A stretch of DNA of 64,000 nt, taken from contig JAGYIG010000002.1 in assembly GCA_018402455.1 (NCBI GenBank), forward strand, positions 1 through 64,000. Reading direction: 5' to 3'. The DNA comes from Opitutaceae bacterium (GTDB lineage Bacteria; Verrucomicrobiota; Verrucomicrobiia; Opitutales; Opitutaceae). Within the stretch, counting starts at the first letter, position 1. Every line of letters begins with the position of its first letter. Positions 19,050 through 43,620 of the stretch are shown in pieces. The notes below the pieces were generated by a model, which saw only the letters and a program-made list of their open reading frames with translations, was not told the DNA's origin and ran no database searches. The translations under genes and the position numbers were made by a program.

Positions 19050-20093
19050 ATGCAAGATCAACTTTCCGCCCTCGTCGAACGGGCCGCCGCCGAAATCCCG
19101 CACATCTGTTCCCGCCCTGAATTCGAAGCCGCCAAAGCGGGCTTTGTCGGGCCCAAGGGGGAGCTGACTGGCCTCATGAAGCAGATGGGCCACGTGCCCA
19201 AGGAGGAAAAACCCGCCGTCGGCAAGCTCATCAACGAGACCAAGCAGCAGCTTTTAAAAATTCTCGAAGCAGGGCTGGCGAGGATTGAAGCCGCTGAGCT
19301 GGCCGCCGCATTGGGCCCCGCGATCGATCCCACCTTGCCGTCGCCCGATCCGCTGCCGGGTGCCCGGCACCCGTTGACGCAGGTTCGGGAGGAACTCAAC
19401 GCCATCCTGCGGAAGGTGGGTTTCACCGTGGTCGAAGGGCCGGAGGTGGAGACCGAATACTACTGTTTTGATGCGCTCAACACCCCGCCGACCCACCCGG
19501 CCCGCGACCCTCAGGACACCTTCTACTTCCCCGCCGATGCCAAATTCTCGAATGTGGCCCGCAAGGTGGCTGGAGAGAAATACCTCCTGCGCACCCACAC
19601 GTCCTCGGTGCAGATCCGCACCATGCTCAAGGGGGAGCCGCCGATCCGCATCGTATCCCCAGGTCGGGTCTATCGCCGGGACACGGTGGACGCCACCCAC
19701 TCCGCCAATTTTCACCAATTGGAAGGGCTCTACGTGGATAAAAATGTGACGGTAAAGGACCTTAAGGCGCTGCTCGATTATGTGCTCAAATCCCTGCTCG
19801 GATCCGATACTCAGGTCCGCTTCCGCCCCCACTATTTTGGCTACACCGAGCCGAGCTTCGAGGTCGACTTGTCGGCGAAACACCTGCCCAAGGTCAACCA
19901 GGAGTGGGTCGAGATCATGGGATGTGGCATGGTGGATCCGGCCGTGTTTGAGGATGTGGGCTATGACGCCTCCGTCTGGACGGGATACGCCTTCGGCATG
20001 GGGATCGAGCGCATCGCCATGATGATCTACGGCATCGACGACATCCGCTACTTTTACCAAAACGACCTGAGGTTTCTCAGGCAATTCGCCTGA
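19050..20093 (+). CDS. pheS: Phenylalanyl-tRNA synthetase alpha subunit
   Basis: GARHPLTQVREELNAILRKVGFTVVEGPEVETEYYCFDALNTPPTHPARDPQDTFY, YAFGMGIERIAMMIYGIDDIRYFYQNDLRFLRQF. Confidence 0.98.
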   Translation: MQDQLSALVERAAAEIPHICSRPEFEAAKAGFVGPKGELTGLMKQMGHVPKEEKPAVGKLINETKQQLLKILEAGLARIEAAELAAALGPAIDPTLPSPDPLPGARHPLTQVREELNAILRKVGFTVVEGPEVETEYYCFDALNTPPTHPARDPQDTFYFPADAKFSNVARKVAGEKYLLRTHTSSVQIRTMLKGEPPIRIVSPGRVYRRDTVDATHSANFHQLEGLYVDKNVTVKDLKALLDYVLKSLLGSDTQVRFRPHYFGYTEPSFEVDLSAKHLPKVNQEWVEIMGCGMVDPAVFEDVGYDASVWTGYAFGMGIERIAMMIYGIDDIRYFYQNDLRFLRQFA

Positions 20094-20098
20094 GAAAC
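20072..20098 (+). repeat. Perfect 11-bp hairpin spanning the pheS stop codon
   Basis: GTTTCTCAGGC-AATTC-GCCTGAGAAAC; TGA stop at 20091-20093 lies in the right arm. Confidence 0.9.
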
Positions 20099-20111
20099 AG
20101 GAGCGAGCATC

Positions 20112-20130
20112 GAGTAGCGAGTAGTGAGTA
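20112..20130. repeat. Left inverted repeat of the S23 cassette, heptad units (GTAGCGA GTAGTGA GTA)
   Basis: gagtagcgagtagtgagta. Inverse copies at 20495-20527. Confidence 0.85.
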
Positions 20131-20486
20131 TGGATAATCCGTCACAGTCATTTCGTGAGGTTGTTGTCTGGCAAAAGGCCCATGCATTCACGTTGGCGAT
20201 CTACTCATTAAGTAGTGCTTTCCCATCCCATGAGTCGTTTGGACTCACGTCCCAATTACGGCGGGCCGCTGCCAGTATTCCTGCGAATTTTGTCGAAGGC
20301 TTTCGCAAACGCACCCTGCCGGATAAAATTCGTTTCAACAACATGGCACAGGCTTCCGCCGACGAGTGTCTCTATCACCTAATTCTGGCCCACGATTTGA
20401 ACTACGCCGACACGAAGGTGTTGCAGTCCGATCTAGAAGAGGTCTCCCGAATCCTCCAAGGCTACATCAATGGTATGAAGCGATAG
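20124..20486 (+). CDS. Four-helix-bundle protein, S23 (23S rRNA intervening-sequence protein) family
   Basis: SFREVVVWQKAHAFTLAIYSLSSAFPSHESFGLTSQLRRAAASIPANFVEGFRK...ASADECLYHLILAHDL. Start may be Met 20124 or a later Met at 20130. Confidence 0.92.
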   Translation: MSMDNPSQSFREVVVWQKAHAFTLAIYSLSSAFPSHESFGLTSQLRRAAASIPANFVEGFRKRTLPDKIRFNNMAQASADECLYHLILAHDLNYADTKVLQSDLEEVSRILQGYINGMKR

Positions 20487-20494
20487 ATTTCGAG

Positions 20495-20527
20495 TCTACT
20501 CGCTACCCACTACCCGCTACTCACTAC
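20495..20527. repeat. Right inverted repeat of the S23 cassette
   Basis: tctactcgctacccactacccgctactcactac; the reverse complement is GTAGTGA GTAGCGG GTAGTGG GTAGCGA GTAGA. Confidence 0.85.
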
Positions 20528-20538
20528 TTTTTCCTAAA

Positions 20539-22989
20539 ATGAAAATTTCCCGCAACTGGCTCCAGGACTACGTCGATTTGACGGGTCTCTCCGACGAAGA
20601 GATCTCCGCCGCAATTACCTTCCTTGGGTTTGAGGTCGAGGGCATCGAATCCACCGGGGCTCCGCCGTTGGACAAGGTGGTTGTGGGGGAGGTCCTCTCC
20701 CGGGCGCCGCATCCCAATGCTGATCGTCTTTCCATCTGCGATGTTGCCGTGGGGGAAGCCTCCGGTGGCACCAAGCGGATCGTCTGTGGGGCCCAGAACT
20801 ACCAAGTTGGCGACCGCGTGCCGGTGGCATTGGTCGGCGCCGTGCTCTCGGGCGACTTCACGATCAAGCCTTCCAAAATTCGGGGCGAAGCCTCGGAGGG
20901 CATGATGTGCTCCGGTAAAGAACTGCAGATCGGGGAGGACCACTCGGGGTTACTGATCCTGACGGCGCGGCCGGAGATCGGCACCCCGATTAATGACGCC
21001 CTGCCGGCGGGAGATGTGGTCTTCGATATCGAGATCACCCCGAACCGTCCGGACTGCCAAAGTCACCTCGGTGTGGCCCGTGAACTCGCGGCCTGGTTTC
21101 GCCGGGAACTGACCTATCCGGCGATGGAAGTGCCCGCTCCGGCGGCGCCCCGTCCCGACCTGTTGAAAGGGCTGCAGGTGGCGCACAGCGAAGATTGCCC
21201 GCTCTACACGGCGTCCGTCATCGCCGGGGTGAAGGTGGGCCCGAGCCCGGAGTGGATGCAACAGCGACTCGCGGCCGTCGGGGTTCGCCCCATCAATAAT
21301 CTGGTCGATATCGGCAACTACGTGATGCTCGAGTATGGGCAACCGATGCACGCGTTCGATGCCCGGAAGTTGGCTGGCCCGGAGATCATCGTGCGGCGAG
21401 CCACCGCGGGAGAAACCTTGGTCACGCTCGATGAAAAAACCCGGACGCTCACCGGGGAAATGTTGGTGATTGCCGACGCCGAAAAAGCCGTGGTGGTCGC
21501 CGGAATCATGGGGGGAGAGAATTCGGGCGTCGACGAATCGACCGTGAATTTGGTTTTGGAAGTCGCGGTGTTTCAGCGGTTTTCCGTGCGAGCCACATCT
21601 CGGGCTCTGGGACTGAGCTCCGACTCCTCCTACCGCTTCGAACGCGGCATCGATGCGCACGCCCTCGCGGAAGCGACCCATCGTGCGATCGGCCTGATTT
21701 TGAAGTATGCCGGAGGCACTTGGTGCGGCCCCACCCTGCGCGTGGGCAGCGAGGAGCCGTGGCAACGCGAGGTCACCGTCAATCCGGCGTGGGTGCGGGC
21801 GCGCTTGGGCTTCGAGGTCACCGATGAGGAGCAACGCAGTGCCCTGGAAGCCCTCGATCTGCTGATCGTGCGCGAGAACGAAATCGACGAGGGGATCGAA
21901 TGGACGGTGCGGATTCCGAGTTGGCGCAGCGATCTGGATCGCCCGATCGATTTGGTGGAGGAGATTTTGCGCGTGCATGGCACCGCTAAAATTCCCGCGA
22001 CGACCGTGACGGCCCCGGGTCTGCTGGCCGATGACGATCCCGTCGCCCAATATAACCGCAACGTGGCCGGGTATTTGGTGGGCCAAAATTTTCAGGAATG
22101 CGTCACTTACACCCTGCGCTCCCGGCCGGAAATCGAAGCGTGGGCAGGAGCGGAGGCCGCGGGTCCCCTGAGTTTGGAAAACCCCTTTCTCGAAGACCAG
22201 TCCCACCTGCGATCCTCCCTCGTGGGCGGACTGTTGGACGCGCTCAAACTGAACCAGACTCGAGGCAATCCGGTGACCCGTTTGTTCGAAACCGGAAGGG
22301 TTTTCATCCCACAGAAAGAGGGCGTGGTCGAATGTGCGGCCGTGGGTTTCGTGATCGCCGAAGCCGGTATGGTCACTTGGAAATCCCGGGAGCTGGCCGA
22401 CTTCTACACCACCAAACGATTGATCGAAGTGATGGCGGATCGGGCCGGCGTGGACCTGTCCCGGCAGCCCCATCTGGAGGATGGGGGTCAGGCCGCCGCG
22501 GGTTGGCAGGCGGGCCAGCACACCCTCCAGGGGGATATGCGTTACGGGTGGTCCGCGCGTTACGGTATGCTTGATCTCGCGGTTCTCAAATCACGCGACA
22601 TTACGGGCAAAGTGCTGGCCGGGGTTTTTGCCATCCTGCCGGAGCGGCTCAACGCGGGGGGCAAACGCAAACGTTTCCAACCGTTCAGCCTGCAACCGGC
22701 GGCCCTGCGCGATGTCGCCTTGGTGGTCGATGAAGCCACCGCCGCCGGTGAGGTCACCAAACAGGTCACCAAGCTGGCGCGGGCCGCGGCGAAGGGCTTC
22801 GAACTCGAGTCGGTCGACCTCTTTGATGTCTATCGAGGCAAAGGGTTGGCCGATGGTCAAAAGAGTCTTGCTTACTCGCTGTCGTTTCGGGCCCCTGATC
22901 GCACCTTGAACGACAAGGAAGTGAACGAAGCGTTCTCGATCTTGCTCGAACAGATCGCGACCAAAACCGATTTCGAGGTCCGGTCTTAG
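20539..22989 (+). CDS. pheT: Phenylalanyl-tRNA synthetase beta subunit
   Basis: MKISRNWLQDYVDLTGLSDEEISAAITFLGFEVEGIE, tRNA-binding domain, FDIEITPNRPDCQSHLGVARELAA, C-terminal anticodon-binding-like domain. Confidence 0.98.
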   Translation: MKISRNWLQDYVDLTGLSDEEISAAITFLGFEVEGIESTGAPPLDKVVVGEVLSRAPHPNADRLSICDVAVGEASGGTKRIVCGAQNYQVGDRVPVALVGAVLSGDFTIKPSKIRGEASEGMMCSGKELQIGEDHSGLLILTARPEIGTPINDALPAGDVVFDIEITPNRPDCQSHLGVARELAAWFRRELTYPAMEVPAPAAPRPDLLKGLQVAHSEDCPLYTASVIAGVKVGPSPEWMQQRLAAVGVRPINNLVDIGNYVMLEYGQPMHAFDARKLAGPEIIVRRATAGETLVTLDEKTRTLTGEMLVIADAEKAVVVAGIMGGENSGVDESTVNLVLEVAVFQRFSVRATSRALGLSSDSSYRFERGIDAHALAEATHRAIGLILKYAGGTWCGPTLRVGSEEPWQREVTVNPAWVRARLGFEVTDEEQRSALEALDLLIVRENEIDEGIEWTVRIPSWRSDLDRPIDLVEEILRVHGTAKIPATTVTAPGLLADDDPVAQYNRNVAGYLVGQNFQECVTYTLRSRPEIEAWAGAEAAGPLSLENPFLEDQSHLRSSLVGGLLDALKLNQTRGNPVTRLFETGRVFIPQKEGVVECAAVGFVIAEAGMVTWKSRELADFYTTKRLIEVMADRAGVDLSRQPHLEDGGQAAAGWQAGQHTLQGDMRYGWSARYGMLDLAVLKSRDITGKVLAGVFAILPERLNAGGKRKRFQPFSLQPAALRDVALVVDEATAAGEVTKQVTKLARAAAKGFELESVDLFDVYRGKGLADGQKSLAYSLSFRAPDRTLNDKEVNEAFSILLEQIATKTDFEVRS

Positions 22990-23000
22990 TCGGTGGTGGT

Positions 23001-23058
23001 GCCGTGCTTTAGCCGGCACTGGGGACGAAGCATCCAGCAACGCCGGCTCAAGCACGGC
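23001..23058. repeat. Inverted repeat downstream of pheT (REP-like)
   Basis: GCCGTGCTTTAGCCGGC (23001-23017) and GCCGGCTCAAGCACGGC (23042-23058), 16 of 17 complementary. Confidence 0.88.
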
Positions 23059-23079
23059 GCTACGTTATGATGAGCCGCC

Positions 23080-25392: not shown

Positions 25393-25397
25393 TTTAG

Positions 25398-25428
25398 TCA
25401 CAGAGGGCACAGAGGAGACACAGAGGCC
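25398..25428. repeat. Left repeat of the GxxExxY cassette (CACAGAG units)
   Basis: tcacagagggcacagaggagacacagaggcc directly before the ATG at 25429. Confidence 0.85.
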
Positions 25429-25800
25429 ATGGAGCAAAACGAACTCACAGAACGAATCATCGGTGCGGCGATTGAAGTTCATCGTGAACTTGGTCCGGGG
25501 TTGCTCGAGTCGGCGTATCAGCGTGCGTTGGCTCATGAATTTACCCTCCGGGGTATCCCGTTTGAGAAGGAACTCATTTGCCCCGTGCTGTATAAGGATT
25601 TGGTAATCGATGATGCCTATCGACTCGATTTCTTGGTCGACGGGTCGGTGGTGGTTGAACTCAAAACCGTTGATGAGCTGATGGATGTACATACGGCTCA
25701 GGTGCTCACTTACCTCAAATTTTCCAAGACTCGGATCGGACTCTTAATGAACTTTCGTTCAACCATTTTGACGTGCGGGCTTAAACGGCTCGCCCTGTGA
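25429..25800 (+). CDS. GxxExxY family protein
   Basis: MEQNELTERIIGAAIEVHRELGPGLLESAYQRALAHEFTLRGIPFEKE...VVELKTVDELMDVHTAQVLTYLKFSKTRIGLLMNF. Confidence 0.95.
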   Translation: MEQNELTERIIGAAIEVHRELGPGLLESAYQRALAHEFTLRGIPFEKELICPVLYKDLVIDDAYRLDFLVDGSVVVELKTVDELMDVHTAQVLTYLKFSKTRIGLLMNFRSTILTCGLKRLAL

Positions 25801-25810
25801 ACTCCGGGTA

Positions 25811-25830
25811 CTCTCTGTGAACTCTGTGAC
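25811..25830. repeat. Right inverted repeat of the GxxExxY cassette (CTCTGTGA units), overlapping the gatB start
   Basis: ctctctgtgaactctgtgac; the reverse complement contains two CACAGAG units. Confidence 0.8.
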
Positions 25831-27292
25831 TCAAAATTCTCCCACCTACGAAGCAGTTATCGGACTCGAGGTCCATGTGCAGGTTAAGACCAAGTCGAAG
25901 ATTTTCACGCGGGTGGAACAGGGGTATGGCCATCCCGAAAACACCCTGACCGACCCGGTCGTGCTGGCGCTGCCGGGTGCGCTGCCGGTGATGAACAAGG
26001 CGGCCCTCGATGCGATCATCAAAGCCGGGTTGATGTTGCACTGCGATATCGCGGACGTCTGCAAATGGGACCGCAAAAACTACTTCTATCCCGATTCACC
26101 GAAAAACTACCAAATCTCCCAATACGATCAGCCGATGTGCCTGGGCGGTTACGTCGAAATCGAGCTTCCGGGGGCCTCCCGCAAGGAGATGGGAGACCAC
26201 AAAAAGATCCCGCTCACCCGGATTCATTTGGAGGAAGACGTCGGGAAACTGAATCACCACGTCCATGATTCACTCGTCGATTACAATCGGGCGGGCACGC
26301 CGTTGATGGAGATCGTTTCCGAGCCCGCCCTGGCCTCGGCCGAAGAGGCCTATGCCTACCTCACCGCCCTGCGCACCATGATGGTTTACGCTGATATCTC
26401 CGATTGTGACATGGAGAAGGGGCAGCTGCGTTGCGACGCCAACATTTCCATTCGGCCGGTGGGGCAAACCGAACTGGGGGTGAAGGTGGAGCTCAAAAAT
26501 CTGAACTCGATTTCCTACGTGCGGGATGGGATTTCCCACGAAATCCGCCGCCAATTGGGGGTCGTGAAAAAGGGCGGGACGATCGTGCAGGAAACCCGCG
26601 ACTACGACGGAATCTCCGGCGCCTCGCAATCGCTGCGCACGAAGGAGGATGCTCACGACTATCGCTATTTTCCCGACCCCGACCTGATGCCGGTGCGCGT
26701 CGATAAGGTGTGGAAGGATCGACTCTCGGCGGAGTGCCCCGAGCGCCCGTTCGACAAGCAGCGCCGCTTTATGGCGGAGTATAATCTGCCCTATACACTG
26801 ACCTCGGTATTGGTGCCAGACCGGCTCCTGAGCGAGTGGTTCGAGGCGGCGGTCACGGTGGCCGGCGCGGCGCAGGCTCAGGGGGTCGGCAACTGGGTGG
26901 TCAACGACTTGCTGCGGGAACTGGGCGCGGCGGGGCAAACTCTGGCGACGTGCCAGGTCACCCCGACCGCCTTGGCGGAGTTGGTGGGGCTCATCGCCGC
27001 CGGCACGATTACCCAACAGGTTGCTCGTGAAGTCTTCACCGAGATGTTTGCCACGGGGGAATCTCCCGCCGCCGTGGTGGAGCGCAAAGGGCTCAAGGGC
27101 GGCACCAACCACGATGAGCTCGAGCAATGGTGTCGGGATGCGATTGCGGGCAATGCCAAGGCGCGCGAGCAGTTCCTGGGGGGAAAGGAAAGTGCCATCA
27201 ATGCCTTCAAGGGACCGGTTATGAAAGCCTCCCGGGGTCAGGCCAACCCCCGGCTGGTGGACGAAACCTTGCGGCGTCTGCTGGCCGAGTGA
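25817..27292 (+). CDS. gatB: Asp/Glu-tRNA amidotransferase subunit B
   Basis: YEAVIGLEVHVQVKTKSKIFTRVEQGYG...YFYPDSPKNYQISQYDQP...KGGTNHDELEQWCRDAIAGNAKAREQFLGGKESAINAFKGPVMKASRGQANP. GTG start at 25817 or 25826. Confidence 0.97.
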   Translation: MNSVTQNSPTYEAVIGLEVHVQVKTKSKIFTRVEQGYGHPENTLTDPVVLALPGALPVMNKAALDAIIKAGLMLHCDIADVCKWDRKNYFYPDSPKNYQISQYDQPMCLGGYVEIELPGASRKEMGDHKKIPLTRIHLEEDVGKLNHHVHDSLVDYNRAGTPLMEIVSEPALASAEEAYAYLTALRTMMVYADISDCDMEKGQLRCDANISIRPVGQTELGVKVELKNLNSISYVRDGISHEIRRQLGVVKKGGTIVQETRDYDGISGASQSLRTKEDAHDYRYFPDPDLMPVRVDKVWKDRLSAECPERPFDKQRRFMAEYNLPYTLTSVLVPDRLLSEWFEAAVTVAGAAQAQGVGNWVVNDLLRELGAAGQTLATCQVTPTALAELVGLIAAGTITQQVAREVFTEMFATGESPAAVVERKGLKGGTNHDELEQWCRDAIAGNAKAREQFLGGKESAINAFKGPVMKASRGQANPRLVDETLRRLLAE

Positions 27293-41991: not shown

Positions 41992-43620
41992 ATGGACGCC
42001 CTGTTGATCGCCATCGCGTTTTTCTTCGGACTGCTGGCCCAACGCCTGCGGCTTCCGCCCTTGGTGGGCTTCCTGGTGGCGGGGTTTGTGCTCAGTGCCC
42101 TCGGGAAAACGGCCGGGCCGAATTTGGACTTTTTGGCGGATCTCGGCGTCACGCTGATGCTGTTCTCGATCGGGTTGAAACTCCGGGTCCGATCCCTCTT
42201 GCGACCGGAGATATGGGCCGGAACCTCGGTCCATACGCTCCTCATCATCGTGTTGTTCTCCGTGGGGTTCATCGGCCTGGCCGCGGTGGGCCTCCCTCGG
42301 TTTACCGATTTGTCCTATCAAACGGCGGCCCTGATCGCGTTTGCCCTCAGTTTTTCCAGCACGGTTTTTGCGGTTAAATCCTTGGAGGAAAATGGCGAGA
42401 TGGGCTCCCTCCATGGCCGGATCGCCATCGGTATCCTGATTATGCAGGACGTGCTGGCGGTGCTGTTTTTGACGGCCTCAACGGGGAAAATCCCGTCCGC
42501 TTGGGCGATCGTGGTACTGGCGGCGCTCCTGCTCTTACGACCCGCGATGGCTTGGATCGTAACCCGATCGGGGCACGGTGAGTTGATCACGCTCTGCGGT
42601 TTGTTTCTAGCGCTCGTCGCGGGGGCCAAGGGGTTTGAGTGGGTCGGGTTGAAAGCGGATCTCGGCGCCTTGTTTATCGGTATCCTGGTGGGGCAGCATC
42701 CGAAGGCCAAGGAGCTGAGCAAATCCTTGGGATCGATCATCGATATCCTGTTGATTGGTTTTTTCCTGAGTATCGGACTGAAAGGACTGCCCGACGGGAC
42801 GGGGCTGGGGATCGCGCTGGGGCTGACCTTGCTGCTGCCGGTCAAAAGCGTTTTGCTCCTGGGTCTCTTGACCCGCTTTCATTTGCGGGTGCGCACGTCG
42901 TGGATGTCCACGCTGACCTTGGCGACCTACAGCGAATTTGGGCTCATCGTGATGGCGGTGGGGGTCAAAAAGGAATGGGTCGGAGCAGAGTGGCTGACCA
43001 TCGTGGCCATTGCGTTGGCTTTGAGTATGTTTGCCGCCGCGCCGCTCAATCGGGCCGCTGAGGCGCTTTACGAGAAATTTGCCGATTGGCTGCATCCGCT
43101 CGAGACGGCAGGTCGTCATCCCGATGACATCGTGGTTCCCGACCGGGGGGAGCAAATCGCGATCTTCGGCATGGGGCGGGTGGGCTTGGCCAGTTACAAC
43201 TACCTGGACCGGAGCTATCCCGGACGGGTCATCGCTTTTGATCGCGATCCGAATGCCGTGGAGCGCCATCAGCGACAGGGGCGCAACGTCATTCTGGCCG
43301 ATGCGACGGATGCCGACTTCTGGAACCAGGTCAAAACCCGGGGACACCCTTTCGAACTGGTGGTTCTGGCCATGCCCAAACACAGCGTAAACCTCCACGC
43401 GGCCGAGACCCTGCGACGCATGGATTACCAAGGCGTGGTGGTGGCCAATGCGAAGTTCGACGATGAAGTCCGGGAACTCCGTGAACGGGGGATTGATACG
43501 GCCTTCAATCTCTACACCGAGGCGGGCACCGGCTTCGCTCATCACGTGTCCAACGTGTTCAATCAACAGCGTCCCGATCTCCACCGCGCGTTCGTCCGCC
43601 TCGAAACCCCGGACGCCTAG
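41992..43620 (+). CDS. CPA2/Kef-type cation:proton antiporter with RCK/TrkA-N domain
   Basis: MDALLIAIAFFFGLLAQRLRLPPLVGFLVAGFVL..., IAIFGMGRVGLASYNYLDRSYPGRVIAFDRDPNAVERHQ. Confidence 0.93.
   Translation: MDALLIAIAFFFGLLAQRLRLPPLVGFLVAGFVLSALGKTAGPNLDFLADLGVTLMLFSIGLKLRVRSLLRPEIWAGTSVHTLLIIVLFSVGFIGLAAVGLPRFTDLSYQTAALIAFALSFSSTVFAVKSLEENGEMGSLHGRIAIGILIMQDVLAVLFLTASTGKIPSAWAIVVLAALLLLRPAMAWIVTRSGHGELITLCGLFLALVAGAKGFEWVGLKADLGALFIGILVGQHPKAKELSKSLGSIIDILLIGFFLSIGLKGLPDGTGLGIALGLTLLLPVKSVLLLGLLTRFHLRVRTSWMSTLTLATYSEFGLIVMAVGVKKEWVGAEWLTIVAIALALSMFAAAPLNRAAEALYEKFADWLHPLETAGRHPDDIVVPDRGEQIAIFGMGRVGLASYNYLDRSYPGRVIAFDRDPNAVERHQRQGRNVILADATDADFWNQVKTRGHPFELVVLAMPKHSVNLHAAETLRRMDYQGVVVANAKFDDEVRELRERGIDTAFNLYTEAGTGFAHHVSNVFNQQRPDLHRAFVRLETPDA

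Follow-up and report, generated by a model that had tools for sequence, protein, structure and literature searches.

S23 gene and inverted arrays between pheS and pheT

The window (the whole stretch of Opitutaceae DNA analysed here, 64,000 nucleotides) encodes an S23 gene (20130..20486, + strand) in the gap between two essential genes, pheS (19050..20093, + strand) and pheT (20539..22989, + strand). The predicted protein matched PF05635 (23S_rRNA_IVP, E = 5e-32) and TIGR02436 (four helix bundle protein, E = 1e-32). The match lies above the curated cut-off, which places the protein in the S23/TIGR02436 family and bears out the gene that an earlier note on this DNA had placed between pheS and pheT. 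The protein has 118 amino acids when read from its ATG and 120 when read from a GTG at 20124, which is a codon inside the left array. Its closest named relatives are from Opitutaceae and other Verrucomicrobia MAGs. Solved structures among S23 relatives include 2GSC and 2RLD, and the solved Xanthomonas homologue is a homopentamer. Among same-genus copies, the dN/dS of S23 is 0.03–0.09. The S23 protein is thus under purifying selection.

The gene is bounded by two arrays of a 7-bp word. The left array (20100..20127, + strand), delimited by sequence reading and Tandem Repeats Finder, consists of four in-register units, GGAGCGA GCATCGA GTAGCGA GTAGTGA, and the S23 start codon lies directly 3′ of it. 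The right array (20500..20527, − strand) consists of four perfect GTAGYGR units in inverted orientation, which read GTAGTGA GTAGCGG GTAGTGG GTAGCGA from 20527 down to 20500. Tandem Repeats Finder reported a period of 7 for both arrays. Inverted heptad arrays had been described in the earlier note, and the right one agrees with that description, whereas the left one proved longer by two degenerate units. Seven GTAGYGR doublets with at most one mismatch, four of them exact, were found in the window, compared with an expected number of 0.08, and none of 100 shuffles reached seven. Hereafter, a gene together with its two arrays (arms) is called a cassette. The S23 array pair ranks fifth among the inverted repeats of the window; the first rank is taken by a second cassette at 25393–25834.

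GxxExxY cassette and other repeats of the window

The second cassette carries a GxxExxY gene (PF13366/TIGR04256; 25429..25800, + strand) and lies between gatA and gatB. Its left array (25393..25425, + strand) is composed of the 9-bp-type unit CACAGAGNN, and its inverted right array (25802..25834, − strand) was delimited by the inverted-repeat search. The GxxExxY protein keeps the PD-(D/E)XK residues D67, E77 and K79. Its predicted structure (pLDDT 96) showed weak matches to Cas4-like and lambda-type nucleases (best E 0.006).

Other repeats were noticed in the window. A 50-bp unit containing GAGTAGCGGCGAGCGGGAG is present at 14–135 in two tandem copies and one inverted copy, and resembles a related non-coding hairpin. 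A REP-like palindrome, GTGGTGCCGTGCTTTAGCCGGC / GCCGGCTCAAGCACGGCGCTAC, lies immediately 3′ of pheT (22996–23063), and a similar palindrome flanks a Y1 transposase gene elsewhere in the same genome (L195). The region 43464–43562 was considered as a further cassette and rejected, as it appears to be coding and has no arms.

Cassettes and array words in the genome and family

The genome from which the window derives encodes five S23 genes and three GxxExxY genes. By eye, inverted short arrays were identified around every GxxExxY gene and all but one of the S23 genes, each with another word. The S23 words are GTAGYGR, TTTACGA, an AAGTAAC-type word and a pyrimidine-rich word, and the GxxExxY words are CACAGAGNN, CACGAATGG and a GCGAAG-type word. 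The arms of the fifth S23 gene (L003) are weak (score 8). In the same genome, exact GTAGYGR doublets number 36 and are spread over about 14 places, compared with three occurrences of the reversed pattern, and some of the GTAGYGR arrays are hairpins without a gene. Within the family, 80 of 150 genomes contain dispersed GTAGYGR arrays, and such arrays are also present in genomes without a detected S23 gene (G011 and G135). The search for S23 genes with GTAGYGR arrays in the genome and its relatives, which the earlier note had proposed, thus showed that the arrays are widespread, but they are not tied to the cassette of the window and are present in part in genomes without S23. GTAGYGR was therefore rejected as a signature specific to S23: it occurs in S23-less genomes, and other S23 lineages use other words.

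Inverted arms around S23 and GxxExxY genes

An arm score was obtained by comparing the left flank of each gene with the reverse complement of its right flank, and loci scoring 12 or more were counted as armed. In the order-level set, 72 of 90 S23 loci (80%) were armed, compared with 3.8% when flanks of different loci were paired (mismatched pairs) and 1.2% when the windows were shifted outward. The best period of these arms was 7 in 50 of the 72 loci and 8 in 16. Of the GxxExxY loci, 26 of 30 were armed, with periods of 9 and 8. The corresponding controls gave 14% (mismatched pairs) and 3% (shifted windows), the former being higher because GxxExxY words resemble one another. An independent set of S23 loci was taken from named genomes of more than ten phyla, including Verrucomicrobiota, Acidobacteriota, Planctomycetota, Cyanobacteriota, Bacteroidota and relatives, Chloroflexota, Nitrospirota, Pseudomonadota, Patescibacteria, one archaeal MAG and others. 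In this set, 58 of 74 loci (78%) were armed, compared with 3.9% of mismatched pairs, and the period was 7 in 38 loci and 8 in 12. About 20% of S23 loci are without clear arms. Each S23 lineage has its own word, wherever the cassette sits. The arms of Bacteroidales S23 loci (L250, L253, L262, L305 and others) have a period of about 8–10 (GAAGTTANN) rather than 7; the arm period appears to be a lineage trait.

History of the pheS-pheT slot

The gap between pheS and pheT was compared among 30 genomes of the family. Ten gaps were empty (8–52 bp), as the earlier note had suggested might be seen in close relatives. Ten held only a non-coding array hairpin (88–204 bp; hairpins called by eye, inverted-repeat scores 8.5–25), seven held an S23 gene and three a GxxExxY gene. 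S23 cassettes of other lineages occupy this slot as well, both in an Acidobacteriales MAG and in two further families within the order. In a quick tree (short search) of 177 S23 proteins, there were at least six changes of the pheS/pheT slot. S23 genes with GTAGYGR arms are also present between gatA and gatB (L228) and at a third site (L227 and L229), and are 73–80% identical to that of the window. One pheS-pheT copy (L094) is closer to the S23s of L227–L229 than to that of the window.

A comparison of the genome of the window (G000) with G004 revealed a cassette far younger than its flanks. Synonymous differences were 0.07 for S23, compared with 0.63 for pheS and 0.66 for pheT, and the arms were identical at 42 of 42 and 64 of 64 positions. 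Sliding identity delimited a tract of about 98% identity (20085..20608), with about 82% on both sides; the tract starts seven bases 5′ of the pheS stop and reaches about 70 bp into pheT. This tract is a unit recently shared between species. An assembly chimera is unlikely, because two joins would be needed, both flanks being those of G004. Since the tract extends into pheT, its transfer points to homologous recombination and not to transposition. The spread between G000 and G004 thus looks like homologous recombination spanning the slot, preceded by an initial insertion. In the more distant copy of G005, the synonymous sites of S23 are saturated (0.72), while the arms are still identical at 35 of 40 and 51 of 58 positions; the arms are thus under constraint.

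These data bear on the simplest explanation, namely an ordinary, vertically inherited operon gene accompanied by chance repeats. The cassette does occupy the same place in four species of the genus, and its protein is under purifying selection. Such an explanation is nevertheless extremely improbable, given a patchy slot with four states, a cassette far younger than its flanks in one genome pair, and arms far above chance. Vertical conservation with no repeats elsewhere, by which the earlier note would have recognized an ordinary gene, is thus not what the family presents.

Copies at unrelated sites and empty sites

Genome G043 encodes two cassettes that are 92% identical over 462 bp and have unrelated flanks. 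Their homology starts and stops in GGCACAAA arrays. The S23 cassette is absent from both places in the sister genome G123, which is about 90% identical around the sites. Both places in G123 hold nested arrays of other words, and one of the gaps includes an N run in which a gene may have gone undetected. One of the G043 copies (L072) is itself nested in a dispersed 9-bp-type hairpin. In G123, the operon gaps L312 and L314 are filled with several inverted arrays, nested like Russian dolls, whose words differ and are 7 or 9 bp long.

Among pairs of S23 loci without shared neighbours, arm similarity rose with protein identity (Spearman r = 0.243, reached in 0 of 1000 permutations). Sharing a host genome had no effect on arm similarity (5.34 vs 5.47). 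The arm word therefore follows the S23 lineage and not the host, indicating that arms and gene travel together. The arms and the S23 gene are one unit.

The clearest insertion was found on cyanobacterial plasmids. An S23 gene with AGAATTC/AGGAGTC arms lies between two genes on plasmid C of Trichormus variabilis ATCC 29413 (L328) and in Scytonema NIES-4073 (L337). Three plasmids (L331–L333) with flanks about 98% identical to those of L328 and L337 have no S23 cassette. The exact junctions could be read: the empty site is AAAAAGTAATTAACAAATA, and the filled site is AAAAAGTAAT, the insert and GTAATTAACAAATA. The insertion adds 428 bp, including a 5-bp duplication, GTAAT. This is the one insertion with a clean target duplication, and none is readable at the site of the window. 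At site B of Nostoc plasmids, the junctions are compatible with a 5-bp duplication of TTCTA, although the same letters are part of the array word, and plasmid sites C and D did not give clean junctions. Compared with the Trichormus copy, the left array of the Scytonema copy is shorter by two heptads, while the plasmid regions are otherwise 97.6% identical; array copy number thus changes quickly. The site of the Trichormus insertion holds a truncated S23 gene in Nostoc C052 pE and a non-coding hairpin with a similar word in Brasilonema. Picosynechococcus PCC 7003 encodes an S23 gene between cas10 and cmr3 that PCC 7002 lacks. Close S23 relatives were found in 29 plasmid records, mostly cyanobacterial, and no match was found for phage carriage of a close S23 relative.

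The S23 cassette moves between sites and between species. The patchy slot, the young cassette, the copies at unrelated sites and the cyanobacterial empty site with its 5-bp duplication together give good support to the non-autonomous mobile cassette suspected in the earlier note. The best reading of the S23 cassette is a gene-bearing, MITE-like element living in operon gaps, whose movement is well supported.

Predicted expression and folding of the cassettes

S23 genes are mostly in sense with their neighbours. The ratio of sense to antisense was 26:3 for upstream and 27:4 for downstream neighbours, and the corresponding ratios for GxxExxY genes were 12:1 and 14:1 (clear readings only in both families). 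Cassettes begin about 45 bp past the upstream stop codon, and their left arms are purine-rich (mean 0.64). These features suggest that cassettes are expressed by read-through, with the left arm aiding ribosome binding. The feature of the window is probably a compact non-autonomous mobile cassette, built of a 7-bp array, S23 and an inverted 7-bp array, which is inserted in sense in the pheS-pheT gap and expressed by read-through.

The sense orientation also suits an RNA-level element like the intervening sequences (IVSs) of 23S rRNA, in which the arms would fold in the operon transcript, RNase III would cut, S23 would be released or discarded, and the arms would be retained in the DNA for pairing in the RNA. 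The IVS of Coxiella rRNA provides a precedent: it contains an S23 ORF, is bounded by terminal inverted repeats, has heptamers 5′ of the start codon and is excised by RNase III (PMC4990558). The arms of the two window cassettes indeed pair in the predicted RNA fold (z = −2.3 and −3.1). However, G-U-compatible changes were not in excess among the arm mismatches (59 to 76, 24 to 41 and 47 to 64), and there was even a slight tendency in the opposite direction. Pairing in the sense transcript therefore does not, or not mainly, keep the arms alike. Moreover, an RNA-level element alone leaves the clean insertion into an empty site and the target duplication unexplained. Of the RNA element folded by the arrays that the earlier note had offered as its second option, the predicted pairing and the sense orientation thus remain, while the pattern of mismatches speaks against it, and we regard it as possible but doubtful. 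RNA-level action could occur together with DNA mobility.

Relation to rRNA intervening sequences

In the S23-bearing IVSs of 23S rRNA (Coxiella, Leptospira), as in the cassettes, terminal inverted repeats enclose an S23 gene; the patchy distribution and the size of about 430 bp are also alike (PMC4990558). A further likeness is seen in the Coxiella IVS, where the start codon directly follows three to four tandem heptamers (GACAGAT). This IVS has a terminal stem of 28 bp and is excised by RNase III (PMC4990558). Unlike IVSs, the cassettes lie in protein operons, both of their arms are arrays, and the word differs by lineage. Purifying selection acts on the S23 protein of the cassettes, but the Coxiella ORF is decaying. 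The feature of the window accordingly has the terminal inverted repeats of an IVS around an S23 ORF, but lies between pheS and pheT and not in an rRNA gene. An rRNA location was also rejected for the other fetched S23 loci, as a scan of all of them for 23S rRNA signatures found no convincing case. A role of the IVS ORF in mobility was proposed by Ralph and McClelland in 1993, as cited in PMC4990558. S23-bearing rRNA IVSs look like one special case of the cassettes.

Relation to MITEs and REPINs

Like MITEs and REPINs, the cassettes are short and multicopy, have inverted ends and no transposase of their own, and occupy operon or intergenic sites. A clean 5-bp target duplication, a possible further likeness to MITEs, was read at one cyanobacterial site; of the other plasmid sites, one is compatible with a duplication and two are not clean. 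The cassettes differ in that they carry a conserved gene and have ends composed of arrays of 7–9 bp words instead of fixed terminal sequences. The feature of the window has the inverted ends, the lack of a transposase and the size (below about 600 bp) of a MITE, but its coding capacity, with S23 under the selection described above (dN/dS 0.03–0.09), departs from the definition. The S23 cassette fits the full definition of neither an IVS nor a MITE. REPIN/RAYT membership is contradicted by the Y1_Tnp loci of the own genome, which have no GTAGYGR arrays. Among these loci, no autonomous parent element with the ends of the cassette was found. RAYTs with the same ends were likewise rejected as partners, since the intact RAYT-like Y1 genes inspected there carry other, REP-like palindromes.

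It may be asked whether the mobile elements are the array hairpins (of REP/MITE type, with a Y1 transposase or another one as the mobilizing enzyme), S23 and GxxExxY being passengers caught within them. Hairpins without a gene often occupy the same slots, and cassettes are nested in other hairpins. The GTAGYGR arrays of S23-less genomes indicate that arrays can persist or spread without S23, and Y1_Tnp genes are present in 64 of 79 S23 genomes. On the other hand, the array word is linked to the S23 lineage across sites and not to the host genome, and the S23 copies of the own genome bear different words. No Y1_Tnp match was found in the S23-rich genomes G145 (nine S23 genes) and G176 (ten S23 genes), and the RAYT-like genes have palindromes of their own. 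Mobility of the hairpins alone is conceivable, though not the likely explanation.

Relation to Avd and possible role of S23 in mobility

PF05635 is related in sequence and structure to Avd of diversity-generating retroelements (PMC10053308), and the two share a four-helix-bundle fold and a pentamer-type family. S23 might thus act like Avd, with a reverse transcriptase supplied in trans; the sense orientation would suit such retromobility, and target-primed reverse transcription could produce such a target duplication. However, no RVT_1 match was found in the own genome, in G043 with its two recent copies, or in 45 of 79 S23 genomes, within the limits of draft genomes. The inspected cassettes, unlike diversity-generating retroelements, have no reverse transcriptase, template or variable repeat nearby. 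The absence of RVT_1 sets the own genome apart from those encoding such retroelements, and retromobility is very unlikely.

A reverse transcriptase and a Y1 transposase were both rejected as necessary partners, as they are absent from S23-rich genomes. This leaves S23 itself or another enzyme acting in trans. Given the lineage-specific word, S23 is the best candidate for recognizing the arms. Under the non-autonomous cassette reading, S23 would recognize the array of its own lineage as a hairpin of DNA or RNA, and the array-bound S23 would recruit a cutting and joining activity encoded outside the cassette. Operon gaps may be favoured as places where an insert is transcribed and causes little damage. 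The non-coding array hairpins at the same sites may be deletion derivatives or MITE-like siblings of the cassettes.

A bolder proposal is that S23 itself is the mobility protein, a pentamer that binds its own inverted array and performs or directs insertion without a known transposase fold, GxxExxY being a second, nuclease-based solution with 9-bp arrays. We consider this rather unlikely. Residues Q42, S49, N53 and E79 of S23 are invariant, and R45 and E56 nearly so; if S23 were the mobility protein, these polar residues would form its functional face.

Heptameric repeats and CRISPR operons

Heptameric repeats in operon gaps have been described as presumed regulators (PMC4679880, PMC2700814). 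They include TAACTGA of Beggiatoaceae, the four- and five-unit heptanucleotide elements of Geobacter and cyanobacterial heptamers. Like the cassettes, they consist of 7-bp words in operon gaps, several per genome and sometimes paired, but they were described as regulatory direct repeats, without a link to S23 or to inverted ends (PMC4679880, PMC2700814). Many of the heptamer and nonamer hairpins seen in operon gaps find one shared explanation in the cassettes. In the open-licence literature, neither S23 nor GxxExxY cassettes with short-period inverted arms were found to have been described. They are apparently a widespread kind of mobile element without a known transposase, present in more than ten phyla and undescribed so far. 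S23 and GxxExxY are common families of unknown function, and our results suggest that they are the cargo or the engines of compact cassettes. The unclear role of two families thus becomes a testable question of mobility, for which Trichormus variabilis plasmid C and Picosynechococcus offer culturable test systems.

A CRISPR survey listed the S23 family among array-linked proteins (PMC10910872). S23 genes lie inside CRISPR operons of cyanobacterial plasmids, between cas10 and cmr3 of a type III-B system (L327, 1495–1851) and between cas6 and cas4 of a type I-D system (L341, 1201–1569). Such S23 genes may be behind the link between the family and CRISPR arrays seen in the survey.
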